Below, one piece after another: positions 886 through 37,386 of a stretch of 64,000 bases of DNA. The position numbers and the translations under genes were made by a program. The notes beneath the pieces are model-generated. The model had not been told where the DNA came from, did no database searches, and worked only from the letters and a program-made list of their open reading frames with translations. Source of the stretch: Roseomonas sp. OT10 (GTDB lineage Bacteria > Pseudomonadota > Alphaproteobacteria > Acetobacterales > Acetobacteraceae); contig NZ_CP087719.1 in assembly GCF_020991085.1 (NCBI RefSeq), positions 4,856,001-4,920,000 of the forward strand. The letters run 5' to 3'. How positions within the stretch are numbered: the first letter of the stretch is position 1; each line of letters opens with the position of its first letter.

Positions 886-1260
886 TGATACGGGCGGTGG
901 GATGCCGTGATCCGTGCCGGCGCGGGGTGTGCGCGTGGCCCGGGGGCAAGGCTCTGCCTCGCCCCCGTACCCCCACTCCGCCAGGACCCTGCGGGCCCTG
1001 GACCCGATCAGCGCTGCCGCGGGACAGCCTGACACGGGGTCGAGGCGCCGAGGAGCTTGGCTCCTCGGCGAGCACGGCCTCCGCACTCGCTGACGCCCTC
1101 TGAAGCTTCTTCAGAGTCCCACCTGTCCGCGCGCCGTCAGGGTTCAGCCCGCAGGCTGACGCCTACCGCGCAGCACCAGACTCCCAGCGGGGTCCGGGGC
1201 CCGCTTGTGGCCCCGGCAGGGGAGGGTCTGGGAGGGGACGGCGTCCCCTCCCGGTCCCCC
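886..1260 (+). repeat. Multi-hairpin intergenic repeat, copy A
   Basis: First of four related 350-375 bp intergenic elements (B 5054-5403, C 32661-33034, D 37020-37386). Copy A has the same orientation as C and is opposite to B and D. In order it contains a hairpin at 942-966 (stem GGGGGC/GCCCCC continued by AGGC/GCCT), an imperfect CCAGG/CCTGG hairpin near 987-1007, a perfect 11-bp stem with 3-nt loop at 1046-1070, a CTCTGAAG/CTTCAGAG hairpin near 1100-1120, a CCGGGGCC/GGCCCCGG hairpin near 1193-1216, and a 10-bp stem with 3-nt loop at 1230-1252. It fills the gap between the convergent tonB and binding-protein genes. No coding frame with normal codon use is visible. The stretch 719-885 before it holds nothing recognisable. 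Confidence 0.9.
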
Positions 1261-1331
1261 GCCGGACCATGACAGACAGGCCAGGTCATCCAGCCGCTGG
1301 TATGAGGCTGCGAAGGCGGTCGGCGTGCCCG

Positions 1332-2609
1332 TCAGCTCCGGATCAGCGGGCAGCCGCCCTGGTCGAGGGGGCGGAAGGCCTGGTCGGGGGCGATGGTTTC
1401 CAGCTTCTCGTAGTAGTCCCAGGCGCCACGGCTGTCGGCGGGCTTCTTCACCCGGAACAGGTGCATGGCGTGCACCGCGCGGCCGTCCTGGCGGATGGTG
1501 ACCTCACCGAACAGCGGATCGTCGATCGGCTTGGCGCGCATCGCCGTCACCACCGTCTCGCCGTCCAGGGTCTTCGCCTCGCGCACGCCGCGCAGGTAGG
1601 CCAGGGTCGCGGAGTAGACGCCGGCGTGGTTCATGGTGGGGCGTCGCCCGCCCATCTGGGCAGAGAAGCGGTCGCTCCAGGCACGGGTCTTCGCGTCCAG
1701 GTCCCAGTAGAACGCCTCGCACAGCAGCAGCCCCTGCGCCGCCTGCAACCCCAGCGCGTGGATGTCGGAGAGCTGGATGAACAGTGCCGCCAGCGAGCGG
1801 CCGCGGCGCAGCACGCCGAACTCCGCCGCCTGCTTGATGGCGTTGATGACGTCCGAGCCGGTATTGGCCAGGGCGAAGACCTTGGCGCCGGAGGACTGCG
1901 CCTGGAGCAGGAAGGCGGAGAGGTCGGCGGTGTTCAGCGGGTGCCGCACCTGGCCCATCACCTTGCCGCCCTGGCGCTTCACCGCCTCGGCCGCGTCGCG
2001 CTCCAGCGTGTGGCCCAGCGCGTAGTCCACGGTCAGGAAGAACCAGCTGTCGCCGCCCTGGCGCATGGTGCCGGTGACGACGCCGTTCGCCTGCGCCCAG
2101 GTGTCCGTCACCCACTGCACCGTGTTGGGCGAGCAGGCGCGGCCGGTCAGGTCCGAGGTGGCGGTCGAGGAGGCCAGCGCGACGCGCTTCTTCTCGCGCA
2201 TCAGGTCGGAGACGCCGAGCCCCACGGCGGAGTTGGCGAGGTCGACCACCGCGCCGACGCCCTCCGTGTCCACCCAGCGTCGCGCGGTGGCGACGCCGAT
2301 GTCCGGCTTGTTCTGGTGGTCGGCCGAGACGATCTCGACCTTCAGCCCCCCCGCCTCGGCGGCGAAGTCATCCGCCGCCAGCTTCGCCGAGACGACGGAG
2401 CCCGGCCCGGCCTGGTCGGCGAAGGGACCGGACATGTCGGAGAGCACGCCGACCTTCACCAGGTTGCCCGGCACCTCGGCGCGGACCAGGGCGGGCGCGG
2501 CCAGCAGGGTTCCGCCGGCGGCCAGCAGGCCCAGCGTCGCGCGGCGCGTCGTCGTCAGGCCATCCGGCCGGATGGAGGGGCGGGCCGGTTCTTCCGTCTG
2601 GCTGGACAT
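1332..2609 (-). CDS. ABC transporter substrate-binding protein, branched-chain amino-acid type
   Basis: A 425-residue exported binding protein of the Peripla_BP_6/LivK class, which delivers amino acids, amides or related small molecules to a Liv-type ABC importer. A twin-arginine signal (RRATLGLLAAGG, then a small-residue cleavage region ending LVRAE) lies near residues 20-46. The mature part opens with the family hallmark KVGVLSDMSGPFADQAG. The start chosen at 2609 is preceded by GAAGGAAA; an in-frame extension upstream lacks a good ribosome site. No permease or ATPase is adjacent, so it is an orphan binding protein in this window. The ligand is not predictable from sequence. Confidence 0.87.
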   Translation of the reverse strand: MSSQTEEPARPSIRPDGLTTTRRATLGLLAAGGTLLAAPALVRAEVPGNLVKVGVLSDMSGPFADQAGPGSVVSAKLAADDFAAEAGGLKVEIVSADHQNKPDIGVATARRWVDTEGVGAVVDLANSAVGLGVSDLMREKKRVALASSTATSDLTGRACSPNTVQWVTDTWAQANGVVTGTMRQGGDSWFFLTVDYALGHTLERDAAEAVKRQGGKVMGQVRHPLNTADLSAFLLQAQSSGAKVFALANTGSDVINAIKQAAEFGVLRRGRSLAALFIQLSDIHALGLQAAQGLLLCEAFYWDLDAKTRAWSDRFSAQMGGRRPTMNHAGVYSATLAYLRGVREAKTLDGETVVTAMRAKPIDDPLFGEVTIRQDGRAVHAMHLFRVKKPADSRGAWDYYEKLETIAPDQAFRPLDQGGCPLIRS

Positions 2610-2724
2610 GGCATTTCCTTCGCTCGGCGCGACCTCCGGCCCTGCCGGCCGGGGCGATCCTGGCCGCATCCTAGGCGAGCGGACGCCGCCCTGCCAGCAA
2701 GGGCGGGCGGCGGCGGTCCGGGCG

Positions 2725-3417
2725 TCAGTCCTTGCGGGCGGCGCGCACCGCGTTCAGCTCCGCCTTCAGCGCCGCGATCTCCTGGCGCAGCGCCGCGACC
2801 TCGCCCTCGGCCGCCTCGGCCGGCTCGTTCTCGCGCCGCGACACCGGGAAGGGGCTGAACAGGCTCATGGCCCGCTCCAGCATCGCCATGTTCTGCTTGC
2901 CCAGCTCCTCGAGATTGCCGAAGGGGCCGCTGAAGGGGTTCAGACCGCCCATCGGGCTGGTCATGGCGCCGGCCATCGGCGTGGTCATGGCGCGGCGCAT
3001 CTGCTCCTGCTGCTGGGCGAAGCCACCCATGGCGAATTCCAGGTAGCGCGGCACCAGCGATTGCAGGCTGTCGCCGTACAGGCCGATGAGCTGGCGCAGG
3101 AAGGGGGTGGGCAGCAGGTTGCGGCCCTTGGCCTCCTCCTCGACGATGATCTGCGTCAGCACGGAGCGGGTGATGTCCTCGCCCGACTTGGCGTCGTAGA
3201 CGACGAAGTCGCGCCCGCGCCGGACCATGCCGGCCAGATCCTCCAGCGTGACGTAGCTGCTGCTCTCGGTATTGTAGAGGCGGCGGTTGGCGTATTTCTT
3301 CACCACCACCGGCGGCATCGCCGGGGCGTCTGCCGCAACCTTCTCGGCTGGCTCGCCTTTGGCCCGCGACTTCGTATCCTCGACCATCGGAGCGGCTCCC
3401 AGCGTTTGCTGCGGCAT
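2725..3417 (-). CDS. phaR: Polyhydroxyalkanoate synthesis repressor PhaR
   Basis: A 230-residue DNA- and PHA-binding regulator that represses phasin and PHA genes until polymer granules titrate it. The PHB/PHA accumulation DNA-binding domain is clear at residues ~30-95: VVKKYANRRLYNT, the LEDLAGMVRRG helix and DFVVYDAKSGEDITRSVL. It is followed by the PHB_acc repeat region (PTPFLRQLIGLYGDSLQSLVPRYLE) and a Met/Gln/Gly-rich tail ending in a coiled-coil (LRQEIAALKAELNAV). The start at 3417 is one choice; an in-frame ATG at 3387 with GGGAG eight bases upstream is equally possible. It is divergent from the PHA-synthase-like pair, the usual alphaproteobacterial arrangement. Confidence 0.92.
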   Translation of the reverse strand: MPQQTLGAAPMVEDTKSRAKGEPAEKVAADAPAMPPVVVKKYANRRLYNTESSSYVTLEDLAGMVRRGRDFVVYDAKSGEDITRSVLTQIIVEEEAKGRNLLPTPFLRQLIGLYGDSLQSLVPRYLEFAMGGFAQQQEQMRRAMTTPMAGAMTSPMGGLNPFSGPFGNLEELGKQNMAMLERAMSLFSPFPVSRRENEPAEAAEGEVAALRQEIAALKAELNAVRAARKD

Positions 3418-3524
3418 GCTAGCCCCGCCTCGCCGCACTGCGAAAGGGTGCCGTTCCGGCAGGCCTGCGCCAGGGTGCCGGCGCCGGAAGCCAGCGTCGG
3501 ACGAAGGGGGGCAGGGAGAGAGGC

Positions 3525-3926
3525 ATGACCGGCTCGCGGGAAGGGGACGCGCCGCTGGAGCGCCTCGCCGAGGAATGGATCGCGTTGTGGCAGTCGGAGA
3601 TCACGGGCTGGGCGACTCGCATGGAACTGTCGCGGCTGATGGCGTCGCTGGGGGGCGCGGGGGTCCCGCCGATGCCGCGGGGGGCAGGTCTTGAGGCCCC
3701 GCCGCGCGCCGCTGCCGCTGCATCTGGGCCTGTCGACGCTGCGCAACTGGACGGCGCTGGGGACCCTGGCGCCGGGGCTGCTGCCGCCGGGCAGCCTGGC
3801 ATGGAACGGCGGATCGACGAGCTCCTCGGCCGCGTGGCAGAGCTGGAGCAGCGGCTGGCCCGTCTCGCCCCAGGGCCGGACGGAGGCGCGGCGCCTGCTC
3901 GACGCCCTGGACGCGGCGGGACATAG
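3525..3926 (+). CDS. Small hypothetical protein preceding and overlapping the PHA synthase gene
   Basis: Not assignable to a named family. The first ~50 residues (EEWIALWQSEITGWATRME and nearby helix) have the GC-rich codon endings typical of this genome and look coding. After about 3690 the same frame uses many A/T-ending codons while the frame beginning at 3691 shows the genomic pattern, so the C-terminal third is overlapped by, or overwritten by, the downstream gene. That tail still reads as an amphipathic coil (ERRIDELLGRVAELEQRLARL). It may be an accessory subunit for the synthase, or the two frames may belong to one protein split by a frameshift. It is divergent from phaR. Confidence 0.5.
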   Translation: MTGSREGDAPLERLAEEWIALWQSEITGWATRMELSRLMASLGGAGVPPMPRGAGLEAPPRAAAAASGPVDAAQLDGAGDPGAGAAAAGQPGMERRIDELLGRVAELEQRLARLAPGPDGGAAPARRPGRGGT

Positions 3927-5046
3927 CGTCGCCGAGCTGCAGGCCGCGGTGGCGCAGCGGCTTGCCGCGCAGGATGCGGCGCTGTTCCAGGGCCTCGCTG
4001 CCTACCAGCGCCACCCCTATCGCCGTGCCGCGCCGGAGCGGCCGGTGCTGTGGCATGAGGGCGCCAGCCGCCTGCTGGATCACGGCCCCCCGGGCGCCCT
4101 CCCCGGTGGCGGGCCCCAGCGCGGCCGGCCCGCGCTGCTGGTCGTGCCGTCCCTCGTCAACCGCGCGGAGGTGCTGGACCTGATGCCCGGCCATTCCCTG
4201 CTCGGCTGGCTGTCGGAGGCCGGCATCCATCCGCTGCTGCTCGATTGGGGCGAGCCGGGCGAGGTCGAGCGCGGGCTGGACCTGACCGGCTGGATCGCCG
4301 GCCGGCTGGAACAGGCCATCGCCGCCGCCGTGGCGGCGACAGGCGGCCCGGTGGTCCTGGCCGGCTACTGCATGGGCGGGATGCTGGCCCTGGCCGCGGC
4401 GCTGCGGCAGCCACGGCAGGTGCGCGGCCTGGCCCTGCTCGCCACGCCCTGGGATTTCTGGGCCGGCGGGGCGGAGGAGCGGGCGCGCCTCGCCGCGGCG
4501 CTGCTGCCGGTTCTGGAGCCGGTGCTGCGCGCCACCGGCGCCCTGCCGGACGCGATGCTGCAGGCGATGTTCGCCAGCCTCGACCCCTTCGGCATCGCCG
4601 CAAAGTTCCGCGCCTTCGCCGCTTTCGACCCGCAGAGCGAGGCAGCCCGGCACTTCGTGGCACTGGAGGACTGGCTGAACGACGGCGTGCCGCTGCCGGC
4701 TCCCGTGGCGCGGGAGGCGCTGGGCGGCTGGTACGGCGCCAATACCCCGGCACGGGGGCAATGGCGGGTGGCCGGCGCGACGGTGGATCCCGCCGGCTGG
4801 CACGGCCCCACCTTCGTGGCCATCCCCCACCGCGACCGGCTGGTGCCGCCGGAAAGCGCCCGCGCCCTGGCCGACCGCCTGCCCCAGGCCGTGCGCCACG
4901 AGGCGGAGGCCGGCCATATCGGCATGGTCGCCGGCCGCAACGCCGAGGCGGCGCTGTGGCGCCCGCTGGCCGCCTGGCTCGGCTCACTCAACACCCCGTC
5001 GCGCCCTGCGGCCCGCCGCACGCGGCGCCGCGTTGGCGGAACGTAG
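3691..5046 (+). CDS. phaC: PHA synthase-like alpha/beta hydrolase (PhaC family)
   Basis: A 451-residue alpha/beta hydrolase related to poly(3-hydroxyalkanoate) synthases, which polymerise hydroxyacyl-CoA into storage granules. It carries the synthase form of the lipase box, GYCMGG (Cys nucleophile), then the WDFW segment, a catalytic Asp in HRDRLVPPES and His in EAGHIGMVAG. The N-terminal PLPLHLGLS and YQRHPYRR segments fit this family. The start is a TTG at 3691 after GGGGCAGG; it is uncertain because the frame overlaps the previous ORF by 236 bases. The divergent phaR supports the role. It is shorter than class I synthases (~600 residues), so it could be a class III-like synthase or a related acyltransferase. 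Confidence 0.78.
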   Translation: MRPRRAPLPLHLGLSTLRNWTALGTLAPGLLPPGSLAWNGGSTSSSAAWQSWSSGWPVSPQGRTEARRLLDALDAAGHSVAELQAAVAQRLAAQDAALFQGLAAYQRHPYRRAAPERPVLWHEGASRLLDHGPPGALPGGGPQRGRPALLVVPSLVNRAEVLDLMPGHSLLGWLSEAGIHPLLLDWGEPGEVERGLDLTGWIAGRLEQAIAAAVAATGGPVVLAGYCMGGMLALAAALRQPRQVRGLALLATPWDFWAGGAEERARLAAALLPVLEPVLRATGALPDAMLQAMFASLDPFGIAAKFRAFAAFDPQSEAARHFVALEDWLNDGVPLPAPVAREALGGWYGANTPARGQWRVAGATVDPAGWHGPTFVAIPHRDRLVPPESARALADRLPQAVRHEAEAGHIGMVAGRNAEAALWRPLAAWLGSLNTPSRPAARRTRRRVGGT

Positions 5047-5053
5047 CGGCCGT

Positions 5054-5403
5054 GGCCCGGGGGAGGCGTTGCCTCCCCCGTAGCCCCCTCCACCGGGGCC
5101 ACAAGCGGGCCCCGGACCCCGCTGGGAGTTGGCTCTTCGCGGTGGGTGTCAGCCTGCGGGCTGAACCCTGACGGAGCGCGGACAGGCGGGACTCTGAAGA
5201 AAGCTTTCAGAGGGCGTCAGCGAATGCTGCGGCCGTACCCGCCGAGGAGCATGGCTCCTCGGCGCCTCGACCCCGTCGCAGTCATCCGCGCGGCAGCGCC
5301 CACCGGGTCCAGGGCCCGCAGGGTCCTGGCGGAGTGGGGGACCGGGGGCGAGGCAGCGCCTTGCCCCCGGGGAACGGGTCCCACGCCGGCAGACGGCGAT
5401 GCA
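5054..5403 (-). repeat. Multi-hairpin intergenic repeat, copy B
   Basis: Reverse-oriented copy of the dispersed element, filling the gap between the convergent phaC-like gene and ecsC-like gene. The terminal hairpin at 5059-5079 has stem GGGGGAGGC/GCCTCCCCC and loop GTT, while copies A and C carry a different but also perfect stem at this place. The central 11-bp stem is at 5240-5264 with loop ATG. The CTCTGAA/TTTCAGAG arm pair, the CAGCC/GGCTG hairpin and the final GGGGGC-type hairpin are all present. No coding pattern is seen. It is the most diverged copy near its right end. Confidence 0.88.
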
Positions 5404-5504
5404 TTACGCCACGCGCAATGAATATAAGGTATGGGGTAGACGACACACCGCGTGGATGGCGGAGCGTTCCGGTCGGCCGCGCCGGCCGGGGGTCCTGGCC
5501 TGGA

Positions 5505-6308
5505 TCAGGCTGCCATGCGGGCGTCCTGCAGGCTGTCGTAGGCGGCGCGGATGGTGTCGCTCCCGTAGGTTGCCTCCAGCCGACGCACGGTGAAGTGGGC
5601 CCGCGCGATGCTGCGGAAGTGTTCGAGGAAGGCGAGGTTGATGGCGGCCCCGGCCGCGGCGCCGATCACCGGCACGGACTGGGCCGAGAGCTTCAGTCCC
5701 ACCGCGCCCATGAAGCGTCCGGCGATGCTGGCCAGGAAGCCGGGCAGCACGGTGGCGGTCAGGTTGGCCGCCGCGTTGGGCAGCAACTGCGCGAGCGCGA
5801 GGCGCGAGGCGAAGTAGCCCACCTTGGCCATGTCGTCGGCCGAGGATTCCCCACCCAGGGCGAAGACCTTCAGGCATTCGGCCCGCACCGCCGGGGTGGA
5901 GGGGTCCTCCCCCTGGTCGGCCGCCTCGGACGCGATCTGGCGCAGCAGGATCGTGGTGGAGATCGGCAGCTCGGTCAGGGTGCCGGGCAGGCCGAAGGCG
6001 CCACCGGCCGCGCCGGCGGCCGCTGCCAGGCCGCGATGCAGCCAGTCCGGCGTCAGGCCATGCGGCGCGCGGCCGGGATGGCTGCGCACCGCCGCGCTCC
6101 AGGCCGCCTCGACGGCGCGCTGGACCGCTCCCTCCACGCCGCGCTGCAGGAAGTCCGGCAGGCGGGACTTCAGCGCCTCGACCGGCGTGCCGGCCAGCGC
6201 CGCCAGACGGGCCGCGAGGGAGGGGTTCTCCAGGACACGGACGGCCTCGGCGAGTTCCGCGCGCGCCTCCGCGGTCAATGGCAGGGGGGTGGGCAGGGTC
6301 TGGCTCAT
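5505..6308 (-). CDS. EcsC family protein
   Basis: A 267-residue protein matching the EcsC domain, a widespread family with no firmly established biochemical role. Features are an alpha-helical N-terminus, Gly/Ala-rich hydrophobic helices (GLAAAAGAAGGAFGLPGTLTELPISTTILLRQIA), the ALGGESSADDMAKVGYFASR segment, and a second hydrophobic helical stretch near the C-terminus (SVPVIGAAAGAAINLAFLEHF). These suggest membrane association. The frame extends much further upstream through lnt on the opposite strand; the ATG at 6308 is chosen because family similarity and normal codon use begin there. It is divergent from lnt. No function is inferred beyond the family name. Confidence 0.82.
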   Translation of the reverse strand: MSQTLPTPLPLTAEARAELAEAVRVLENPSLAARLAALAGTPVEALKSRLPDFLQRGVEGAVQRAVEAAWSAAVRSHPGRAPHGLTPDWLHRGLAAAAGAAGGAFGLPGTLTELPISTTILLRQIASEAADQGEDPSTPAVRAECLKVFALGGESSADDMAKVGYFASRLALAQLLPNAAANLTATVLPGFLASIAGRFMGAVGLKLSAQSVPVIGAAAGAAINLAFLEHFRSIARAHFTVRRLEATYGSDTIRAAYDSLQDARMAA

Positions 6309-6476
6309 GGCCAGCAGAAATGGTGACGGGGCGGACGGGTTGCAGGGCCCGCGCGCCACCTGTCCGCCATGCGCGCGGTGGCGGGGGCCGGCCCGCCATG
6401 GCTTGCCGCTCTCGCCACCCACCGGTAGGTGCGACCCCACCATTCCCGGCCCATCCAATCCCGGCAGGTGCGGCGC

Positions 6477-8012
6477 GTGTTCTCCCGAATCCTTCGACAT
6501 CTCGAGGGGCGGCGCGGCTGGCGCGCCCCGGCCACCGCGGTCGGCCTGGGGGCGCTGAGCGCGCTCGCCATGCCGCCGGTGCATCTGCTGCCGGTGCTCT
6601 GGCTGACGCTGCCGGGCTTCCTGTGGCTGGCGGCGCATGCCCCGGACCGGAAGCGGGCGGCGCTGGTCGGGCTGGCCTGGGGCTGGGGTTTCCAGCTCGC
6701 CGGCCTCTACTGGATCACCGAGGCGATCCTGACGGAGGCCGACCGGCTCTGGTGGCTGGTGCCCCTGGCCGTCCCGGCGCTGGCGCTGCCGATGGGCGCC
6801 TTCTCCGTGCTGCCCGCGCTGGCCGCCTGGGGGGCGCCGGCCGGCTGGCGGCGGGTGACGGGCTTCGCGGCGGCCTGGGTCGGGGCGGAAATGCTGCGCG
6901 GCTGGGCCTTCACGGGCTTCCCCTGGAACCTGCTGGGCACCGCCTGGGCCTTTGATGCGCTGCCGCTGCAGGGCGCGGCCTGGATCGGGGTGCATGGCCT
7001 GTCCCTGGTCACCGTGCTGCTGGCCTGCGCGCCGCTGGGGGGGAGGCGGGGCTGGCTGGGGGCCGCGGCGGGGCTGGTGGCCTTCGGCCTGTTCGGCCTG
7101 GCGCGGCTGTGGCCCGAGGAGCCGGCGCCCCACCCGATCTCCCTGGTGCTGGTGCAGGGCAACATCGGCCAGGAGATGAAGTGGCGGCCGGAGACGCGCT
7201 GGCCGATCTTCCGCCGCTATCTGGAGCTGACGCGTGACGGGGTGGCCGAGGCGGCGGCGCAGGCCCCGGGCACGCGGGCGGTGGCGATCTGGCCGGAGAC
7301 GGCCAGCCCCTTCCTGCTGAACGAGGATGCGGAGGCACGGCGATTCGCCGCCGCCGCCCTGCCGGCGGACGGCGTGCTGCTCGCCGGGTCGGTGCGGGCG
7401 GAACTGGAGCCGGATGGCCGGGCTCGCGCAGTGTTCAACAGCCTGGTGGCCCTCGATGCGACGGGGGATATTCTCGGGCGCTACGACAAGAGCCATCTTG
7501 TCCCGTTCGGCGAGTACATGCCGCTCTCCGGATTGTTACCTCTCCGTGTCATTCGTGGTGGCATGGATTTCACGGCCGGTGCGGGACCGGTCACTGTCGA
7601 CGTGGGAGGGCTACCAGGCTTTTCGCCGCTGATTTGTTACGAAGTGATCTTTCCCGGCGCGGTCGTGTCCGCCAGTCGCCCAGAGTGGCTCACCAACATC
7701 ACGAACGATGCCTGGTTCGGTACCTCGGCTGGCCCCTACCAGCACTTGGCTGCAGCGCGGCTGCGGAGTGTCGAGGAGGGATTGCCAATGGCCCGGGTGG
7801 CCCAGACCGGCATCTCGGCCGTGATGGACGGTCGGGGACGTTTCGTGGGCCGGCTTGGGCTGGGCCAGACCGGGGTGCTGGTAGCACCATTGCCACGGGC
7901 AATGCCGGCTACCCCTTTCTCGCGATACGGGCTTTGGCTGCCCGGGGCACTCGTCCTTCTGATGACGGCCCTGTCTTTCGCGCCAGGGTTGCGGCGCCAC
8001 CCCGATACCTGA
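6477..8012 (+). CDS. lnt: Apolipoprotein N-acyltransferase
   Basis: A 511-residue inner-membrane enzyme that adds the third acyl chain to the N-terminal cysteine of lipoproteins. About eight hydrophobic segments flank a periplasmic nitrilase-like domain with its Glu-Lys-Cys triad: Glu in WPETASPF, Lys in YDKSHLVPFGEY and Cys in PLICYEVIFP. Other family marks are FTGFPWNLLGTAW and LVQGNIGQEMKW. A GTG at 6477, seven bases after AGGTG, is taken as start; GTG 6468 is an alternative. From about 7537 to the stop many codons end in A or T, unlike the first half, which suggests the 3' part was acquired by recombination. The XRE gene follows in the same direction. Confidence 0.93.
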   Translation: MFSRILRHLEGRRGWRAPATAVGLGALSALAMPPVHLLPVLWLTLPGFLWLAAHAPDRKRAALVGLAWGWGFQLAGLYWITEAILTEADRLWWLVPLAVPALALPMGAFSVLPALAAWGAPAGWRRVTGFAAAWVGAEMLRGWAFTGFPWNLLGTAWAFDALPLQGAAWIGVHGLSLVTVLLACAPLGGRRGWLGAAAGLVAFGLFGLARLWPEEPAPHPISLVLVQGNIGQEMKWRPETRWPIFRRYLELTRDGVAEAAAQAPGTRAVAIWPETASPFLLNEDAEARRFAAAALPADGVLLAGSVRAELEPDGRARAVFNSLVALDATGDILGRYDKSHLVPFGEYMPLSGLLPLRVIRGGMDFTAGAGPVTVDVGGLPGFSPLICYEVIFPGAVVSASRPEWLTNITNDAWFGTSAGPYQHLAAARLRSVEEGLPMARVAQTGISAVMDGRGRFVGRLGLGQTGVLVAPLPRAMPATPFSRYGLWLPGALVLLMTALSFAPGLRRHPDT

Positions 8013-8049
8013 GCCCTTTTCGGATCATTATTTAGATTTCTCGAAAGAG

Positions 8050-8078
8050 TTGACAAAGAGTTTGCGCGGTTGCAGATT
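8050..8078 (+). promoter_or_regulatory. Candidate sigma70-type promoter before the XRE gene
   Basis: A perfect TTGACA at 8050-8055 is followed, after 17 bases, by CAGATT at 8073-8078, a weak match to the -10 consensus. It sits in an unusually AT-rich stretch between lnt and the XRE regulator, 132 bases before the chosen ATG. The -35 match and spacing are good; the -10 is poor. Confidence 0.45.
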
Positions 8079-8209
8079 CCGTGCACGACGAAGGGAAGGA
8101 ATGCGGCGTGACAACATCCGTTGCGTTCAGCCGCGGCACGAAGGACACGCGTCGGCCGGAGCTGGCCCGATCCGGGAATGGTCTTGCCGCTGGAGTAGAG
8201 GAGAGGCGG

Positions 8210-8662: not shown

Positions 8663-8876
8663 CCGAGGCGGCCCGATCCACGCCCCTGGGCGCCTTCGCC
8701 CGGCGAGCGAGGGGTGGGCGTGAAGGCTTCGTCCCCGTGGGACGGGGCAGGTGGGACGCGGCAAACAGGATGGCGCAGCACGCGACGCGCCAGCCAGACC
8801 GCCACGAGCCGCATGACCGCATCGTCATGCCCCGCAGCACGGTGGGCCGCCCGGCGGCGGAACGGCTGCCCGGTCC

Positions 8877-9407: not shown

Positions 9408-9471
9408 GACGCCGCCATGATAGGGTGCCCGCCGCACCGTGCCAGCGAAAACCCCGAAGACCGCGCCCGCC

Positions 9472-29971: not shown

Positions 29972-30067
29972 GGATCGTCTCCCCGCTTGTCTCCGGGACA
30001 GGCATAGAGCGGATCGGCCGCGCCTGGAAACCGCCTGGGCCCGCTGCCTGCCGGAAAGGACACCCGC

Positions 30068-30730
30068 ATGACCAAGGCCCCGCGCGGCACCCCGGAGGCC
30101 CTGCCCCCGGCCACCCTGTCCCTGGAGGCGATGCTGCCGGGTGAGGGCGGCCTGCTCCTGCTCTCCGCCCGTCCGGGCGACGAGATCCGGGGCTGCGGCG
30201 GGCTGCTCGCGGCGATGGCTGCCGCGGGGCGGCCGGTGCGGGTGGTCATCGCCACCGATGGCCAGGGCCAGCCCGCATTGCGGCGCCGCCAGGCGGTGGA
30301 GGGGCTGGCGGCGCTGGGGCTGGGCGCGGGCATGCTGGTGCTGCTGGGGCAGCCGGCCGGCGGCGTGCCGGAGGCCGGGCCGGGCTTCGCGGCCATGGTC
30401 ACCGTCGTCGCCGGGCTGCTGCGCCGGGAGGCGGCGCTGGACACGCTGCTGCTGCCGCCGGGGGAGGCCGGCGACCGGGCCGCCCTGCGCGCCATGGGGC
30501 TGGCCGCGGCGGCGGGGCTCGGCCTGCGGCGGCTCGGCTACGCCCTGCCCGGGGAGGGGCCGCCGGGCGGCGGGGAGCCCGGCGCGCGGCGGCTGGACCT
30601 GACCGGCTGGCGGGCCGCCCGGGACCGGGCCATGGCCGCCCACGGGGGCCGGGGGAAGGGGCCCGCCTGGGACAGCGCCACCTGGGAACCCCCCGCCTGG
30701 GAAAGCTACATCGAGCTGCCGCCAGGATGA
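30068..30730 (+). CDS. PIG-L family protein lacking catalytic metal ligands
   Basis: 220 residues with the fold signature of PIG-L/LmbE zinc deacetylases: a hydrophobic strand LLLLSARPGDEIRGCGG, then GRPVRVVIATDGQG. The normal metal motif HPDDE is here RPGDE, so the zinc His is Arg and the catalytic Asp is Gly. The usual second His motif (HPDH-type) corresponds to PPGEAGDRAALRAMG and has no His. The protein is therefore probably not a zinc deacetylase. The C-terminus ends in an unusual WDSATWEPPAWESY segment. Codon use is normal, so it is not an obviously decaying pseudogene. Role unknown. Confidence 0.75.
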   Translation: MTKAPRGTPEALPPATLSLEAMLPGEGGLLLLSARPGDEIRGCGGLLAAMAAAGRPVRVVIATDGQGQPALRRRQAVEGLAALGLGAGMLVLLGQPAGGVPEAGPGFAAMVTVVAGLLRREAALDTLLLPPGEAGDRAALRAMGLAAAAGLGLRRLGYALPGEGPPGGGEPGARRLDLTGWRAARDRAMAAHGGRGKGPAWDSATWEPPAWESYIELPPG

Positions 30731-30740
30731 TGCCATCCTG
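30723..30740. terminator. Perfect hairpin overlapping the PIG-L stop codon
   Basis: CAGGATG-ATGC-CATCCTG, a 7-bp stem with a 4-base loop. It spans the TGA of the PIG-L-like gene and lies in the 40-bp gap to the convergent hydrolase gene. Possible bidirectional terminator; there is no T-tract. Confidence 0.4.
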
Positions 30741-30770
30741 CCGGGGGCGGGGCGCCCTGCGGAACGGGCC

Positions 30771-31427
30771 CTAGCGTGCCGCCTCGCCGGCATAGGGGTT
30801 GGTCCGGCGCTCCTCGCCCAGCGTGCCGCCGGGGCCGTGGCCGCAGTGGAACTGCACGTCGTCGCCCAGCGGGAAGAGCTTGCCGCGGATGCCCTCGATC
30901 AGGCCGGGGCCGTCGCCATAGGGGAAGTCGCTGCGGCCGACGGAGCCGCGGAACAGCACGTCGCCCACCAGCGCCAGGCGCTGGGCCGCGTCGAAGAAGA
31001 CCAGGTGGCCGGGGGTATGGCCGGGGACGTGCAGCACCGCGAAGGGCCGGCCCGCGATCTCCACCGTGTCGCCCTCGGACAGCCAGCGGTCCGGCGTGAC
31101 CGCCCGGGCGGGAAAGCCGTACTTCGCCGCCGCCTCCGGCAGGCCGTCGAGCAGGAAGCGGTCCGCCTCGTGCGGCCCCTCGACCGGGATGCCGAGCCGC
31201 TCCGCCAGCTCGGCCGCGCCCGAGGCGTGGTCCAGGTGGCCATGGGTCAGCACCACCTTCTCCGCCGTCACGCCCAGCTGCTCCAGCGCGGCCAGGACGG
31301 GGGCCGCCTCGCCGGGATCGATGACGGCGCCGCGCTTCGTCGCCTCGTCCCAGAGGATCAGGCAGTTCTGGTGGAAGGGGGTGACGGGCACGACTGCCCC
31401 TCGCAGGCCGCTGGCATCCGACGTCAT
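30771..31427 (-). CDS. Metallo-beta-lactamase-fold hydrolase (glyoxalase II-like)
   Basis: 218 residues with all zinc motifs: THGHLDHASG (HxHxDH), VPGHTPGHLVFF, VGDVLF and a C-terminal CGHGPGGT. It is shorter than GloB and lacks its C-terminal helical domain, so it fits the YcbL-type glyoxalase II/persulfide-dioxygenase-like hydrolases; a true GloB lies at 46322. The substrate is probably a glutathione thioester or related thioester. The start at 31427 begins just before the conserved PVTPFHQNC segment. Confidence 0.87.
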   Translation of the reverse strand: MTSDASGLRGAVVPVTPFHQNCLILWDEATKRGAVIDPGEAAPVLAALEQLGVTAEKVVLTHGHLDHASGAAELAERLGIPVEGPHEADRFLLDGLPEAAAKYGFPARAVTPDRWLSEGDTVEIAGRPFAVLHVPGHTPGHLVFFDAAQRLALVGDVLFRGSVGRSDFPYGDGPGLIEGIRGKLFPLGDDVQFHCGHGPGGTLGEERRTNPYAGEAAR

Positions 31428-31627
31428 GGCTGGGGGGTCTCCGTCTGCGGTGTCCGGCACGCTCCCTAGCACCCTCCGGCCGCGCCGGCGCCACCCCGCG
31501 GCAGGGGGCGGGGCGGCGAGGTGGCGCCGGCCGGGCCGCGGGGAGCCGGGCCATCGGCCGGGGCGGGCAACCCTTCCGGGCCCCGGGCGTCGAACGGAGG
31601 CAACCCGTGCCACGACAGGAGCCGCCC

Positions 31628-32629
31628 ATGCTGAACCGACGGACCACCCTGGCCGGCGCGGCGGCCGCCATGGCCTCCGCGACCACTGCCCGGGCGCAGG
31701 GCGACGCCCCGGCGCTGCTGGTGATGGAGAAGAACGCCGGCACGCTGGGCTTCCTGGATCCTGAATCCGGCCGTCGCCTCGGCGAGGTGGCGCTGGCCGA
31801 GTACCCGCACGAGTTCGTGGTCGATCCGCAGTCCCGCCTCGCCTTCGTCGGGCACTACGGGGTGGAGACCTCCGCCGCCACCGCCGAGGGCGGGCATGCC
31901 GTGCTGGTCGTGGATCTGCGCGAACGCAAAATCGCGCACCGCATCGACATCGCGCCCTTCAACCGGCCGCACGGCATGGCGATCGACGCGCGCGGGCGGC
32001 TCTCCGTGCTCAGCGAGGGGCGCAATACCCTGCTGACCTTCGACGAGCCGGCGGAGGCGCGGCAGCCCTCCATCGCCGTCGCCGCGGGCGGCATCAAGAC
32101 GCATCTCTTCGCGCTGACGCGCGACGGGGAGCGCGCCTACGTCACCGGCCTGCTCTCCAACACCGCGAGCCTCGTCCGGCCCCGTGACGCCGCCATCGCG
32201 CCGGTCACGGTCACCACCGGGCGCATGCCGGAGGGGCTGTGCCTGAGCCCGGACGAGCGGACGCTCTACGTGGCCAACCGGCGCAGCGGCACGGTGGCCG
32301 CCATCGCGGCGGACAGCATGCGCGTCACCGAGACCAGGCCGGTGAGCGGCGACCCGCTGCGCCTCTATGCCCTGCCGGACGGGCGGCTGTTGCTGGCCGA
32401 CCTGGAACGCGCCCGCATGGTGCTGCTGGGCCCGCGGCTGGAGGAGATCGCCGCCATCCCGCTGGACGCCAAGCCCAGCGCGGCCTCGCTGCACCCGTCG
32501 CGGCCCCTGGCCTTCGTCTCCCTGGCCAATGACCGCATCGCCCTGCTGGACCTGGAAACCCACCGGATCGAGGGACACTTCGCGACCCGGGCCGGGGCGG
32601 ACGTCACACGCCTGGTGACGCCAGGATAG
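31628..32629 (+). CDS. Exported YncE-like beta-propeller protein
   Basis: 333 residues. A Tat-type signal (LNRRTTLAGAAAAMASATTARAQ region) is followed by repeating beta-propeller blades, each with a D/PDGR-like turn: VDPQSRLAFVGHYG, IDARGRLSVLSEG, LSPDERTLYVANRRSG, HPSRPLAFVSLANDR. It resembles YVTN/YncE periplasmic propeller proteins, whose function is generally unknown. The start at 31628 follows AGGAGCC. It is divergent from the hydrolase gene; repeat copy C follows its stop. Confidence 0.83.
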   Translation: MLNRRTTLAGAAAAMASATTARAQGDAPALLVMEKNAGTLGFLDPESGRRLGEVALAEYPHEFVVDPQSRLAFVGHYGVETSAATAEGGHAVLVVDLRERKIAHRIDIAPFNRPHGMAIDARGRLSVLSEGRNTLLTFDEPAEARQPSIAVAAGGIKTHLFALTRDGERAYVTGLLSNTASLVRPRDAAIAPVTVTTGRMPEGLCLSPDERTLYVANRRSGTVAAIAADSMRVTETRPVSGDPLRLYALPDGRLLLADLERARMVLLGPRLEEIAAIPLDAKPSAASLHPSRPLAFVSLANDRIALLDLETHRIEGHFATRAGADVTRLVTPG

Positions 32630-32660
32630 GTGCCGGCCCCAGGGCCGCGCCCCGCGGCGC

Positions 32661-33034
32661 CATACGGATGGCGGGAGGCGCTGATCCGTGCCGGCGCGGG
32701 GTGCGCCCGTGACCCGGGGGCAAGGCTCTGCCTCGCCCCCGTACCCCCACTCCGCCAGGACCCTGCGGGCCCTGGACCCGATCAGCGCTGCCGCGGGACA
32801 GCCTGATACGGGGTCGAGGCGCCGAGGAGCCATGCTCCTCGGCGGGACCGGCCTCAGCCCTCGCTGACACCTTCTGGATTTCTTCTGGAGTCCCGCCTGT
32901 CCGCGCGCCGTCAGGGTTCAGCCCGGAGGCTAACACCCACCACGGAGCACCAGACTCCCAGCGGGGTCCGGGGCCCGCTTGTGGCCCCGGCAGGGGAGGG
33001 TCTGGGAGGGGACGGCGTCCCCTCCCGGTCCCCG
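32661..33034 (+). repeat. Multi-hairpin intergenic repeat, copy C
   Basis: The closest match to copy A, in the same orientation, between the convergent YncE-like gene and the pcaF-type gene. The entry GGGGGC hairpin is identical in plan to that of A. The central 11-bp stem is at 32820-32844 with loop CAT (TTG in A). The terminal 10-bp stem is at 33004-33026, with the same sequence as in A. One internal hairpin (CTCTGAAG in A) has decayed here to an unpaired TTCTGGA duplication. No coding signal. Confidence 0.9.
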
Positions 33035-33079
33035 CTGGAACACCACAGCACAACGGGTCAGCTCATCCCGCCATCGGGA

Positions 33080-34282
33080 TCAGACCCGTTCGATCAGCGC
33101 CGCGATGCCCTGGCCGACGCCGATGCACATGGTGGCGATGGCACGCTTGCCGCCCAGCGTTTCCAGGGCGTTCACCGAGGTCAGGGCGATGCGCGCCCCG
33201 GAGGCGCCCAGCGGGTGTCCCAGCGCGATGGCGCCGCCATGCGGGTTCACCTGCGGCGCGTCGTCGGGCAGGCCGAGGTCGCGCGTCACCGCCAGCGCCT
33301 GGCTGGCGAAGGCCTCGTTCAGCTCGATCACGTCGATCTCGCCGATCGACAGCCCGGTGCGGGCCAGCAGCTTCTTGGTCGCGGGCGCCGGGCCGAAGCC
33401 CATGATGCGCGGCTCGACGCCGGCGGTGGCCATGCTCACCACCCGGGCGCGCGGGGTGAGGCCGTATTTCCGGGCCGCCGCCTCGCTGGCGATGATCAGC
33501 GCCGCGGCACCGTCGTTCACGCCCGAGGCATTGCCCGCCGTGACCGTGCCGGGGTTGCGGAAGGGGGTCTTGAGCTTGGCCAGGCCCTCCAGCGTCGTCT
33601 CGGGGCGCGGGTGCTCGTCCAGCTCCACCACCGTGTCGCCCTTGCGGCCGGGGATGGTGACGGGGACGATCTCACGGGCGAAGAAGCCCGCCTCCTGCGC
33701 CGCCTTGGCCTTCTGCTGCGAGCGGTAGGCGAAGACGTCCTGGTCCTCGCGCGAGATGCCGAACTGCTCCGCCACGTTCTCGCCCGTCTCGGGCATGGAA
33801 TCCGTGCCGTAGGTCTTCTTCATCATCGGGTTGACGAAGCGCCAGCCGATGGTGGTGTCCTCGACCTTCGCGTCGCGCGAGAAGGCCGTTGCCGCCTTGC
33901 CCATGACGAAGGGCGCGCGGGTCATGCTCTCCACGCCGCCGGCGATCACCAGCTCCGCGTCGCCGGAGCGGATCATGCGCGCCGCCGTGCCCACGGCATC
34001 GAGGCCCGAGCCGCAGAGCCGGTTCAGCGTCGATCCCGGCACCACCACGGGCAGGCCGGCGAGCAGCACCGCCATGCGGGCCACGTCGCGGTTGTCCTCG
34101 CCCGCCTGGTTGGCGCAGCCGACATAGCAGTCGTCCACCGCCGCCCAGTCCACGCCCGTGTTGCGCTCCACCAGGGCGCGGAAGGTATGGGCCAGCAGGT
34201 CGTCCGGGCGCACATCCTTCAGCGCGCCGGCATAGCGGCCGATCGGGGTGCGGACGAAGTCGCAGATGTAAGCGTCAGCCAT
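33080..34282 (-). CDS. pcaF: Acetyl-CoA acyltransferase, 3-oxoadipyl-CoA thiolase type
   Basis: 400 residues of the thiolase family. The nucleophilic Cys is in NRLCGSGLD, His in NPHGGAIALGHPLG and the second Cys in CIGVGQG; the SMTRAPFVM and GFGPAPATKK segments are also typical. Placed directly after two CoA-transferase subunits, it fits PcaF, which cleaves 3-oxoadipyl-CoA to succinyl-CoA and acetyl-CoA at the end of the beta-ketoadipate pathway. A general acetyl-CoA acetyltransferase is the alternative. ATG 34282 follows GAGAGGGGAG. Confidence 0.88.
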   Translation of the reverse strand: MADAYICDFVRTPIGRYAGALKDVRPDDLLAHTFRALVERNTGVDWAAVDDCYVGCANQAGEDNRDVARMAVLLAGLPVVVPGSTLNRLCGSGLDAVGTAARMIRSGDAELVIAGGVESMTRAPFVMGKAATAFSRDAKVEDTTIGWRFVNPMMKKTYGTDSMPETGENVAEQFGISREDQDVFAYRSQQKAKAAQEAGFFAREIVPVTIPGRKGDTVVELDEHPRPETTLEGLAKLKTPFRNPGTVTAGNASGVNDGAAALIIASEAAARKYGLTPRARVVSMATAGVEPRIMGFGPAPATKKLLARTGLSIGEIDVIELNEAFASQALAVTRDLGLPDDAPQVNPHGGAIALGHPLGASGARIALTSVNALETLGGKRAIATMCIGVGQGIAALIERV

Positions 34283-34296
34283 GGTTCGCTCCCCTC

Positions 34297-34956
34297 TCAG
34301 CCTGCCTTGTGCAGCGTCGCGCCGGTCCTGGCCTGCAGCGTCTCGAAATCCAGCCCTGGCACCATCTCGCGCACCACGAAGCCCTGCTCCGTGATGTCGA
34401 TCACCGCGAGGTTGGTGTAGACCCGCGTCACCGCGCGCCCGGCGGTCAGCGGATAGGAGCATTCCTCCACCAGGCGGGGCCGCCCGTCCTTGGTGGTGTG
34501 CTCCATCACCACCCAGAGGCGCTTGGCGCCCACCGAGAGGTCCATGGCCCCGCCCACGGCGGGGGCGCTGTCGTTGGCCGAGGTCGCCCAGTTGGCGATG
34601 TCGCCGTTCTGCGCCACCTCGAAGGCGCCGAGCACGCAGAGGTCCAGGTGCCCGCCGCGGATCATCGAGAAGCTGTCGGCATGGTGGAAGAAGCTGCCGC
34701 CCGGGCGCAGCGTCACCTGCTGCTTGCCCGCGTTGATCAGCCAGGGATCGGCCTTGCCCTCCTCCGGCGCCGGGCCCATGCCCAGAAGCCCGTTCTCGGA
34801 ATGGATGATCACCTCGCGTTCGGCGGGGATCTGGTCGGCCACCAGGGTCGGCACGCCGATGCCCAGGTTCACGTACCAGCCCTCGGGGATGTCCCGCGCC
34901 ACGCGCGCCGCCATCTGCGGCCGGCTCAGCGGCTTGAAGCCCAGGGTCTCGGACAT
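34297..34956 (-). CDS. pcaJ: 3-oxoacid CoA-transferase subunit B
   Basis: 219 residues. The beta subunit carries the catalytic Glu in the motif SENGLLGMGP, preceded by YVNLGIGVPTL and followed by GGHLDLCVLGAFEV and VGGAMDLSVGAKR. With subunit A it moves CoA from succinyl-CoA to 3-oxoadipate (PcaIJ) or acetoacetate. It is separated from the A gene by 23 bases and from the thiolase gene by 14. ATG 34956 is chosen; an extended frame upstream lacks family similarity. Confidence 0.88.
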   Translation of the reverse strand: MSETLGFKPLSRPQMAARVARDIPEGWYVNLGIGVPTLVADQIPAEREVIIHSENGLLGMGPAPEEGKADPWLINAGKQQVTLRPGGSFFHHADSFSMIRGGHLDLCVLGAFEVAQNGDIANWATSANDSAPAVGGAMDLSVGAKRLWVVMEHTTKDGRPRLVEECSYPLTAGRAVTRVYTNLAVIDITEQGFVVREMVPGLDFETLQARTGATLHKAG

Positions 34957-34979
34957 GTCTCGCTCCTCCGCTTGCCGGC

Positions 34980-35663
34980 TCAACCCTGCGGGTCGCCGTA
35001 GGGGACGTGCACCACGCGGTCGACGAAGATGCCGGGCGTGACCACGACCTCCGGGTCGATGCCGTCCACGGCCTCGCAGACATGCTGGGTCTGCACGATG
35101 GTGCGCCGCCCGGCGGCGGCCATCACCGGGTTGAAGTTCCGCCCGGATTCCCGGTAGGTCAGGTTGCCCCAGCGGTCCGCCCGCCAGGCCTCCACCAGCG
35201 CCACGTCGCCGGGCAGCGCCTCCTCCAGGATGCAGGGGCGGCCGCCATACTCCCGCACCTCCTTGCCCTGGGCCAGCAGCGTGCCGGCGCCCGTGGGGGT
35301 GAAGAAGGCGGGGACGCCCGCGCCCGCCGCGCGCATCCGCTCCGCCAGCGTGCCCTGCGGCACGATCTCCAGCTCGATCCTCCCGGCCTTGTACAGCTCC
35401 TCGAAGACCACCGAGCCGGCCGAGCGCGGGAAGGAGCAGATGATCTTGCGCACCCGTCCCAGCTCCATCAGCCGGGCCAAGCCCGTGTGTCCCGTGCCGG
35501 CGTTGTTGGCGACGACGGTGAGGTCCTTCGCGCCCTGCTCGGCCAGCCCCTCGATCAGCGCGTTGGGCTGCCCCACGGACCCGAAGCCGCCGACCAGCAC
35601 GGTGGCACCGTCCTGGATCCCGTCCAGCGCCTCGGCCACCGAGCGGACGAATTTATCGATCAT
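34980..35663 (-). CDS. pcaI: 3-oxoacid CoA-transferase subunit A
   Basis: 227 residues. The alpha subunit has the glycine-rich CoA-binding loop GGFGSVGQPNALIEGL, then the VVANNAGTGHTGL and GNLTYRESGRNFNPVMA segments. It is the first gene of the leftward pcaIJF-type operon. No ring-cleavage genes (pcaHG, catA) are in the window, so a role in 3-oxoadipate use is inferred from the trio only. ATG 35663 follows AGGACAC. Confidence 0.87.
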   Translation of the reverse strand: MIDKFVRSVAEALDGIQDGATVLVGGFGSVGQPNALIEGLAEQGAKDLTVVANNAGTGHTGLARLMELGRVRKIICSFPRSAGSVVFEELYKAGRIELEIVPQGTLAERMRAAGAGVPAFFTPTGAGTLLAQGKEVREYGGRPCILEEALPGDVALVEAWRADRWGNLTYRESGRNFNPVMAAAGRRTIVQTQHVCEAVDGIDPEVVVTPGIFVDRVVHVPYGDPQG

Positions 35664-35918
35664 GGAGTGTCCTCGACTGTGGATGGCGTCCCGTGCGGCA
35701 GGCTCCCGGGCCCGTGCCGCCGGGGGAGGCGGTCCGGAGCCACCGGGCCGTGCATCCTCGGGGGCGGCCCGCCGCGGCGGGCGGCCTGCCACGGCTGCGG
35801 CGCCCGGGTCCCGCCGCAGGGGCCAACTGAGGGCGGCAAGATGCCGAAGCCGGGCGCGGGTGACCAGACCCCGGCCGGCGCCCCGGCATGGCCGGGCGGC
35901 ATCGCGCCCATGCGCCGG

Positions 35919-36848
35919 TCAGCGATGTGCCCAGGGGCGCAGGATGCGGTGCCCGATCGCCCGCAGGTGCCGCCCGCCCGCCCGGGACAACAGGCCGCGC
36001 AGGGGCGAGCGCCGCGGGGGCAGGGCAGGGACGTAGGGCGCGGGGAAGTAGGTGCTGGGCACGTCGGCGTGGCGCCGGGCCAGGGCCTGCAGCTCCGGCA
36101 GGGTCATGGTCGGGCGCGAGGCCAGCAGCGCCGGCATGGCGAGCGAGACGTAGCCGCGGCGCCGCGCCACCACGGGGAAGAGCCGCTCCATCGCATGGGC
36201 GGTGGTGCCGTCGAGCTGCCCGGCCTCCGCCTCGAACAGCGCCGTCACCCGCTCGTCCACCAGCCCGGCCAGGGCTTCGTGGCGGAACCAGAACATGGAG
36301 CCGGCGGCGAAATAGGCGTCCTCCAGGTCGTCCTCCGTCATCTCGCCGCCCAGGGTGGTGAGGACACGGTCCATGCCCTCGGCATTGACCAGGATCCAGG
36401 GCTTCACGCTGAGGCAGAAGGCGGCCGGGGTGACGAAGCCGATGCGCCGGTCGGCGCGCAGGCGCTCGATGATCGCCCGGCCGCCACCCTGGCCCGGCAG
36501 CAGGGAGTCGAGCAGCGCGGCGCGCCACTGCGCCCCGTCCTCGCGCTGCGGCGACTTCTTGGTGTGCAGCTTCAGGCCGAAGGTGAAGTCCGGCAGCACC
36601 TCCAGGGCCCGCAGGAAGGGCAGGATGTCCCGACCCCGGTTCTCGACCGGCAGCACCCGCGCCGAGAGCAGGGCGGGGGTCTGCGGCAGAACGATCTCCT
36701 CCACCGGGGCGGAGGTCGTGACGACCAGATGGAAAGGCAGGGTGAGGCGCCGGGCCAGCACCTTGCTCATCTCCCGCCAGATGTCCGGGTAGTGGGCATG
36801 GACGAACACCGCGATCGATGCCTTCACATCGGCCGGCGTATCAATCAT
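35919..36848 (-). CDS. Rhamnan synthesis protein F-like (cell-surface polysaccharide)
   Basis: 309 residues matching the RgpF family associated with rhamnose-rich polysaccharide assembly. Diagnostic segments are IAVFVHAHYPDIW near the N-terminus, VENRGRDILPFLRAL, FGLKLHTKKSPQ and FWFRHEALAGL. The biochemical role of the family is not settled; it is usually found in O-antigen or capsule loci. It stands alone here, ~8 kb from the kps genes. It ends with a basic Arg-rich tail. ATG 36848 is chosen over an upstream in-frame start. Confidence 0.8.
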   Translation of the reverse strand: MIDTPADVKASIAVFVHAHYPDIWREMSKVLARRLTLPFHLVVTTSAPVEEIVLPQTPALLSARVLPVENRGRDILPFLRALEVLPDFTFGLKLHTKKSPQREDGAQWRAALLDSLLPGQGGGRAIIERLRADRRIGFVTPAAFCLSVKPWILVNAEGMDRVLTTLGGEMTEDDLEDAYFAAGSMFWFRHEALAGLVDERVTALFEAEAGQLDGTTAHAMERLFPVVARRRGYVSLAMPALLASRPTMTLPELQALARRHADVPSTYFPAPYVPALPPRRSPLRGLLSRAGGRHLRAIGHRILRPWAHR

Positions 36849-37019
36849 CGCGGTTGCAACCTGGAGACAGGGGAAGATCGATCTCTTTGCCCACGGGGCG
36901 AGCAAGCGTCAACGTCACCCCCGGCCGTATCCCCCCGGCCCGCCGGAATCCGGCCGGGCGTGCCCGGGGCGCCGCAACCGGCACGGTGCGGCCCCGATCC
37001 GTGGCGAAGGCGGACCCGT

Positions 37020-37386
37020 CCCCCGGGGGAGGCGCCGCCTCCCCCAGACCCCCTCCACCGGGGCCACAAGCGGGCCCCGGTCCCCGCTGGGAGTCTGGTG
37101 CTGGCTGCTGCCGTCAGCCTGCGGGCTGAACCCTGACGGAGCGCGGACAGGCGGGACCCTGGAAAAGATTCAGAGGCGTCAGCGAGTGCGGCGGCCGGTC
37201 CCGCCGAGGAGCATGGCTCCTCGGCGCTGTGACCCCGTATCAGGTTGTCCCGCGGCAGCGCTGATCGGGTCCAGGGCCCGCAGGGTCCTGGCGGAGTGGG
37301 GTACGGGGGCGAGGCAGAGCCTTGCCCCCGGGCCACGGGCGCCCCCATGCCGGCACGGATCAAGGCATCGCCCCGTCCGTATCAGA
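37020..37386 (-). repeat. Multi-hairpin intergenic repeat, copy D
   Basis: Same orientation as copy B and opposite to A and C. The terminal hairpin at 37025-37045 has the B-type stem GGGGGAGGC/GCCTCCCCC with loop GCC. The central 11-bp stem at 37202-37226 has loop ATG. The exit GGGGGC hairpin at about 37300-37330 is the exact complement of that in A. Unlike A-C, it lies between two genes in the same direction, upstream of the RgpF-like gene. The stretch 36849-37019 holds nothing recognisable. Confidence 0.9.

Follow-up and report, generated by a model that had tools for sequence, protein, structure and literature searches.

MITEAba12 (PMC6382973) and the QMITEs of Coxiella (PMC5896051) are bacterial miniature inverted-repeat transposable elements (MITEs). 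In the available parts of these reports, MITEAba12 carries a target-site duplication and one QMITE2 lengthens the 3' end of a gene while keeping the reading frame. Among the repetitive extragenic palindromes (REPs) and bacterial interspersed mosaic elements (BIMEs), members of the GTAG superfamily often supply the stop codon to flanking open reading frames (ORFs), and repeats of the CGTC superfamily are missing in the Acetobacteraceae, according to the accessible portion of PMC3733652. The Br-REP1 repeat of Bradyrhizobium was first found in overlapping 3' untranslated regions of convergent genes and occupies about 200 sites, as given in the accessible text of PMC5082802. Here we describe a repeat element of Roseomonas sp. 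OT10, a member of the Acetobacteraceae, four copies of which (A to D) lie in a stretch of 64,000 nucleotides, hereafter the window (contig NZ_CP087719.1, positions 4,856,001 to 4,920,000, assembly GCF_020991085.1).

We consider it probable, at roughly two chances in three, that the element is a non-autonomous MITE that inserted into CTSAG targets (S being C or G) and has been kept at gene ends through two double-hairpin modules that would act on the 3' ends of neighbouring transcripts. The evidence for this reading comes from the insertion signature, the location of the copies relative to genes, and the uneven conservation along the element.

Copy number and extent of the element

The genome-wide search proposed in a first-pass annotation of the window returned 174 occurrences of the core pattern (30 bases, one of them free, with at most 3 mismatches), 85 in forward and 89 in reverse orientation, which bears out the expectation of many more copies per genome. 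The reversed pattern, used as a control, had no occurrences, and chance is thus excluded as the source of the repeats. The family was analysed in 1.63 Mb of contig 1 sampled from the surroundings of known copies, which contain 126 of the 174 core copies; 124 of these were aligned and 2 are cut by the ends of the sampled stretches. The sample was chosen around copies, and densities derived from it are therefore not genome averages.

In the alignment of copies, the conserved unit starts with CTSATACGGACGGCGGGATG and stops with CATCCCGCCGTCGGTATSAG. It is about 425 bp long, and 55 of the 64 well-bounded copies measure 411-429 bp between the outer C and the outer G. A profile of the element yields 160 matches in the sample, 137 of which span more than 350 of the 436 profile positions; 135 of these full copies have called neighbours on both sides and provide the location counts below. 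The suspected lack of a coding pattern was confirmed with the same 135 copies. The overlap between the element and the adjacent called genes is below 25 bp in 130 of them and 25-49 bp in the remaining 5, and the element itself contains no called gene of at least 50 codons. Pairwise identity among the 124 aligned copies has a median of 83% and a maximum of 91.3%.

Tips and target-site duplication

The terminal inverted repeats are imperfect (TACSGACGGCGGGATG), and both tips are recognizable with at most 4 mismatches in 16 positions in 85 of the 104 end-to-end copies. The 3-mers that flank these 85 copies on the left and on the right are equal in 53 cases, compared with a mean of 26.7 and a maximum of 37 in 500 shuffled pairings, and there is no excess of matching flanks at lengths 1, 2 or 4-8. 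The predominant combinations are TCA/TCA (29 copies) and TGA/TGA (23 copies); TGA/TCA occurs twice and TCA/TGA never. In addition, the preceding base is C in 54 of the 85 copies and the following base is G in 57. These flanking bases, together with the 3-mer match, indicate that the target is C-TSA-G and that the duplication is TSA. The first-pass annotation had seen no obvious target-site duplication, and on this point it is corrected by the TGA/TGA pair around copy A as well as by the family-wide 3-bp duplication.

The element is short and non-coding, has inverted tips and a target-site duplication, and is dispersed in high copy number, which are features of a MITE. That the family represents a MITE-like insertion, and that the element did insert, thus appears well supported by sequence comparison. 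The same features (inverted tips, 3-bp duplication, fixed length and dispersal) agree with one of the interpretations offered at first pass, a non-autonomous mobile element.

IS1031-group insertion sequences (ISs) make TNA duplications. The 3-bp TSA duplication of the element fits this pattern, and a DDE transposase of the IS5/IS1031 type might be its mover, although this type is a guess. The search for transposases covered two families, DDE_Tnp_1 and Y1_Tnp, and gave 34 DDE_Tnp_1 matches in the genome, 20 of them on contig 2. The genome harbours a resident IS5-family element (NF033580) with 12 copies of 954 bp that are 99-100% identical, and it looks recently active. Its target rule, C-TNA-G, is similar to that of the repeat: a matching 3-bp TNA duplication flanks 12 of the 12 copies, and the full C-TNA-G is present at 7 of the 12. 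This IS was considered as the mover and rejected, as its tips (GAGCCTGATCCGAAA) are unlike those of the element. The first-pass annotation had named a match to a known IS end as an observation that would count against a new family, and the tips of this resident multi-copy IS provide no such match. The IS5-type transposases cluster on contig 2, unlike the listed places of the repeat.

Location at gene ends and stop codons

Genes were called with a home-made dicodon caller trained on ORFs in which GC content at the codon positions follows GC3>GC1>GC2. An earlier set of calls, which placed 136 copies in 74 co-directional, 39 divergent and 23 convergent gaps, was dropped because it had been trained on antisense shadows; the longest ORFs had been taken without a check of codon position in this 73% GC genome.

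There are 104 convergent, 31 co-directional and no divergent locations among the 135 copies, and the gene pairs in the sampled DNA comprise 224 convergent, 908 co-directional and 198 divergent pairs. Of the 270 element ends, 239 point at a gene's 3' end. A tip lies on a called stop codon (within 1 bp) in 81 of the 104 end-to-end copies, with one tip doing so in 79 and both tips in 2. The last base of the stop codon is tip position 4 (the A of CTGA) in 80 of the 179 gene ends that face an element, and for co-directional copies the profile match starts within 6 bp of the stop codon of the upstream gene in 22 of 31 cases. The median convergent gap in the sampled DNA is 487 bp with an element (n=111, partial copies included) versus 53 bp without one (n=113).

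Module structure and constraint

The body of the element consists of two similar modules in inverted orientation, each comprising hairpin 1, a C-rich linker with the consensus RACCCCC..CTCCGCC, hairpin 2 and GGACCC. The centre between them holds one perfect 11-bp hairpin and conserved blocks. The consensus fold lies 8 standard deviations below 60 dinucleotide shuffles. No Rfam family scores above its gathering threshold in the window, and over copy A there are just sub-threshold microRNA matches at E<=1.

Covariation was examined in 50 modules from this genome and three relatives, with left and right modules pooled and the structure read from the same sequences. Two-sided pair changes in the module hairpins amount to 115 cells versus 41 in shuffled data, with 0 of 500 shuffles as high. 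There are 12 pairs that change on both sides versus 8.5 expected, and 4 of 500 shuffles are as high. Pairing within the module hairpins is 89.9%, versus 31-58% in slid controls.

Conservation is distributed very unevenly along the 124 aligned copies. Substitutions per site are 0.204 in the left outer arm, 0.013 in the left module, 0.111 in the centre, 0.034 in the right module and 0.201 in the right outer arm, so that the outer arms carry about 6-16 times as many substitutions per site as the modules. When the left module is broken down by base class, the contrast amounts to about 13-65 fold for CpG, other C, other G and A; T is represented by 7 sites, with 0.080 versus 0.186. The conservation of the left module was not selected for by the collection of copies, because the search pattern sits in the centre, part of which was so selected. 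Linkage among distant variable sites is barely above that of shuffled data (mean r2 0.0086 versus 0.0082, standard deviation 0.0001, largest pair 0.24), indicating that most changes are confined to single copies, and subfamily structure is almost nil. Tips that drift beside modules that are kept would find their simplest account in selection on each copy.

Relatives and the wider family

The first-pass annotation had also suggested a search of other Acetobacteraceae, and this gave a divided answer. In 298 further genomes of the family, including 7 from the same genus, the core pattern does not occur; without mismatches it has no occurrence in the named genome collection, and plasmids and phages give no match by blastn. 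Three genomes of the same genus (G102, G159 and G236) do have elements with the same order of parts at about 70% identity, with modules up to 96% identical. Matches are weaker in the other 11 genomes of the genus, with 8.6e-14 as the best E. In 19-20 kb stretches from six more distant genus genomes there are no full homologues, only weak matches, and several modules are found there with a covariance model of the module. A 400-kb portion of G236 contains 22 long elements, of which 13 are convergent and 6 co-directional. At the G236 orthologue of the site at 290614-291043, which carries a copy in the OT10 genome, there is instead a short hairpin flanked or followed by no element, with runs of A and T, and it looks like an ordinary two-way terminator.

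The module covariance model matches at least 21 of 100 genomes of the family, this one included, at E<=1e-4, and at least 20 of 99 genera; these are lower bounds, as the filters were strict and at most 47 candidates per genome were scored. From two other genera, 20 of the best-listed places were taken (10 each) and annotated with the gene model of the Roseomonas genome. These places contain 28 module matches, 27 of which were examined, one tandem match being omitted. An upstream gene is called for 25 of the 27, and 21 of these 25 modules are in sense orientation, -10 to 82 nt behind the stop codon of that gene. None of the examined modules lies between divergent genes, and an inverted second module is present at 7 of the 20 places. 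Position, sense orientation, constraint, and covariation across modules and species give indirect support to a structured-RNA role, a further interpretation offered at first pass.

Proposed mechanism and alternatives

In the proposed scenario, insertion into CTSAG would duplicate TSA and regenerate TGA on both sides. The restored TGA would leave the gene with its original end and so spare it, and copies that landed within genes or promoters would have disappeared. A gene that reads into the element would transcribe its stop codon, the outer arm, hairpin 1, the C-rich linker and hairpin 2. From the place, orientation and constraint of the modules we infer that they probably act at transcript ends. 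The transcribed hairpins might end, trim or protect the transcript, and might block an antisense run into the converging neighbour. The C-rich linker could be bound by Rho, for example, or by another RNA-binding protein, which is a guess. A bolder version is tentative, and we lean slightly against it: the module (hairpin, C-rich linker, hairpin) would be a gene-end RNA module of the Acetobacteraceae's own, lying in sense orientation directly behind stop codons and packaged here as a mobile inverted pair that enters stop codons harmlessly and has supplied two-way ends to well over 100 convergent gene pairs, with every copy still under selection.

An unlikely alternative, although the best of the competing ones, is that the element is a purely selfish MITE that finds harmless CTSAG sites nowhere but in convergent gaps and at stop codons, the modules being conserved by the needs of a transposase or by conversion between copies. 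The available targets are in keeping with this idea. Near convergent genes, unoccupied CTSAG sites number 64 at TGA stops and 15 between genes, and the occupied sites of the end-to-end copies (convergent and co-directional pooled) number 81 at stops and 23 elsewhere, a similar ratio that makes active aiming at stop codons unnecessary. However, neutral decay predicts equal drift along the element, whereas the outer arms, tips included, have changed about 15 times as fast as the left module. The largely private changes of each copy likewise speak against purely selfish maintenance, as does the presence of the module in other genera, mostly sense-oriented behind stops.

The first-pass annotation had offered a large REP/BIME-like element as another interpretation, and its anatomical part stands, given that two double-hairpin modules lie in inverted orientation. 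If REP-like hairpins had formed a mosaic and been dispersed by a REP-associated tyrosine transposase (RAYT), rather than by a DDE transposase, this would agree with the convergent and co-directional sites, the opposed units and the stop codons supplied by termini that the accessible portion of PMC3733652 reports for REPs. We nevertheless regard this origin as improbable, as the RAYT domain Y1_Tnp has no match in the whole genome, whereas 5 of 14 control genomes do match, and 137 of the 160 profile matches represent one long unit. The tips and the 3-bp duplication of the family also speak against it. Slightly less credible again is the view that these are ancestral gene-end structures, inherited locus by locus and homogenised by conversion, with the TSA match arising as a by-product of stop codons. 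Related species do share the architecture, and other genera share the module, at gene ends. Yet TSA forms a direct repeat even though the stop is used at one end in 79 of 104 copies and at both ends in only 2, and converging stops predict TGA on the left and TCA on the right, which is the arrangement of 2 of the 85 clear-tipped copies. A comparison of sites with a relative was possible at 2 of the 135 locations, and no element was detected in the relative at either of these gene pairs.

Several observations weigh against the reading as a MITE retained through its modules. Neither of the two site comparisons is base-exact, owing to excessive divergence of the flanks. The evidence for mobility is confined to this species because the tips and the duplication are not seen in the relatives; TSA precedes tip-like words in 2 of 18, 1 of 15 and 0 of 6 cases in three relatives, and in 112 of 191 cases in this genome. 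No present movement is indicated, since no pair among the 124 copies exceeds 91.3% identity. The 30 loci examined among the 34 DDE_Tnp_1 matches have scattered tip-like words (at most 3 mismatches), and none of them has element tips at the ends of an IS; the 21 tip-like words outside the copies in the 1.63 Mb include no inverted pair at IS distance. For the RNA role, the count of further pair types in the 50 modules is below that of shuffles (16 versus 18.2), and the copies of this genome alone show 25 double changes versus a shuffled mean of 15.5 and a maximum of 25. Gene conversion limited to the modules could mimic constraint. The module hairpins lack a U-tract, and simple intrinsic termination is thus not predicted. 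Finally, 3 of the 22 elements of G236 lie in called divergent gaps, and 4 of the 25 module matches in the other genera have an antisense upstream gene.

The four copies in the window and genomic distribution

All four copies are confirmed (Table 1). As described at first pass, they share long blocks in both orientations, with 85-90% mutual identity over about 300-410 bp when each is compared with the window by BLAST, and have a common order of hairpins. The sites assigned to them were right and their extents were not, in that the units are longer. The conservation of the central block of copy A is partly a matter of choice because part of it is the search core.

Table 1. Features of the four copies in the window (tip triplets of B and D are given in element orientation).
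Feature	Position	Strand	Remarks
Copy A, full length	889..1302	+	414 bp between flanking repeats; tips TACGGGCGGTGGGATG ... CATCCAGCCGCTGGTA
Left TGA of 3-bp target-site duplication of A	886..888	.	within CTGAT; no called gene's stop
Right TGA of 3-bp target-site duplication of A	1303..1305	.	within ATGAG
Left double-hairpin module of A	940..1005	+	hairpin 940-967, C-rich linker 968-980, hairpin 981-1001, then GGACCC; read from sequence
Centre of A, perfect 11-bp hairpin	1046..1070	+	CGCCGAGGAGC TTG GCTCCTCGGCG; stem conserved
Central hairpin of A	1098..1116	+	CTCTGAAGCTTCTTCAGAG; differs between copies
Central block of A	1135..1161	+	CGTCAGGGTTCAGCCCGCAGGCTGACG; overlaps search core
Right double-hairpin module of A	1190..1252	-	inverted relative to left; hairpins 1230-1252 and 1194-1216; read from sequence
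Copy B, right outer arm missing	5047..5418	-	
TCA (element orientation) at left tip of B	5419..5421	.	read from sequence
Copy C, full length	32663..33079	+	
CCA left of C	32660..32662	.	probably decayed left duplication copy
TCA, right duplication of C	33080..33082	.	TGA stop of thiolase gene 33080-34282(-)
Copy D, with its left arm preserved and its right outer arm diverged	37020..37381	-	
TGA (element orientation) at left tip of D	37382..37384	.	no called gene's stop; nearest called stop 37426

Copy C is the only one in the window with a tip on a called stop codon, and the gene concerned matches Thiolase_N (E 6.6e-81). The right module of B abuts the TAG stop (5044-5046) of gene 3691-5046(+), and the TCA at the left tip of this copy has no partner because its right arm is missing. 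In both B and D the standard right outer arm is missing, and recombination between subfamilies is a possible origin of this arrangement. The outer right hairpin of D resembles the type found in the relatives. Of the eight genes that neighbour the window copies, 7 were scanned and all 7 match Pfam families; the eighth starts outside the window.

There are 100 core places for which positions were listed, all of them on contig 1 (5.33 Mb); the other 74 were counted only. None of these 100 is on contigs 2 or 3, and the portion of contig 1 from about 1.0 to 3.0 Mb holds just 10. In this same region the sampled DNA changes the sign of its weak GC skew. The copies may avoid the terminus half of the chromosome or accessory regions. 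At 4170156-4170725 of contig 1 there is a partial and a full copy in tandem beside one gene end. There are also three divergent copies of about 310 bp (for example contig 1 241513-241815 and 5219675-5219967) for which the relatives' model scores higher than the model of this genome, and these are perhaps an older subfamily.

Comparison with known systems

Searches of the open-licence literature in PMC showed no description of the element in Roseomonas, nor of a bacterial MITE that regenerates a stop codon. Like MITEAba12 (PMC6382973) and the QMITEs (PMC5896051), the element is short, has inverted tips and is present in many copies. Unlike these MITEs, as far as the available parts of the two reports describe them, it has a TSA duplication in CTSAG that regenerates the stop codon, its copies are diverged and confined to gene ends, two internal modules are far more conserved than the tips, and a partner IS was not found.

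The element resembles the REPs and BIMEs of the GTAG and CGTC superfamilies, in the accessible portion of PMC3733652, in its palindromes, its opposed units and its convergent and co-directional sites. It differs from them in having no RAYT in the genome and in being a unit of about 425 bp with transposon-like tips and a duplication. REP/BIME units measure 20-40 bp and bear a GTAG or CGTC tag; the module is about 66-78 nt long, and its consensus ends show no GTAG. Br-REP1 is similar in consisting of repeated stem-loops, but its sequence is different and much shorter, and the accessible text of PMC5082802 describes no transposon-like ends.

The results also point to a gene-end module spread across the family and not in Rfam, and its conserved C-rich linker makes it worthwhile to look for a protein that binds it or for a termination factor. 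Two explanations are usual for repeats where genes converge, namely tolerated parasites and functional 3' elements. The element described here unites both signatures in separable form, with a precise insertion mark and drifting arms beside unchanging modules, and the old question of whether such repeats are retained for a function thereby becomes testable copy by copy.

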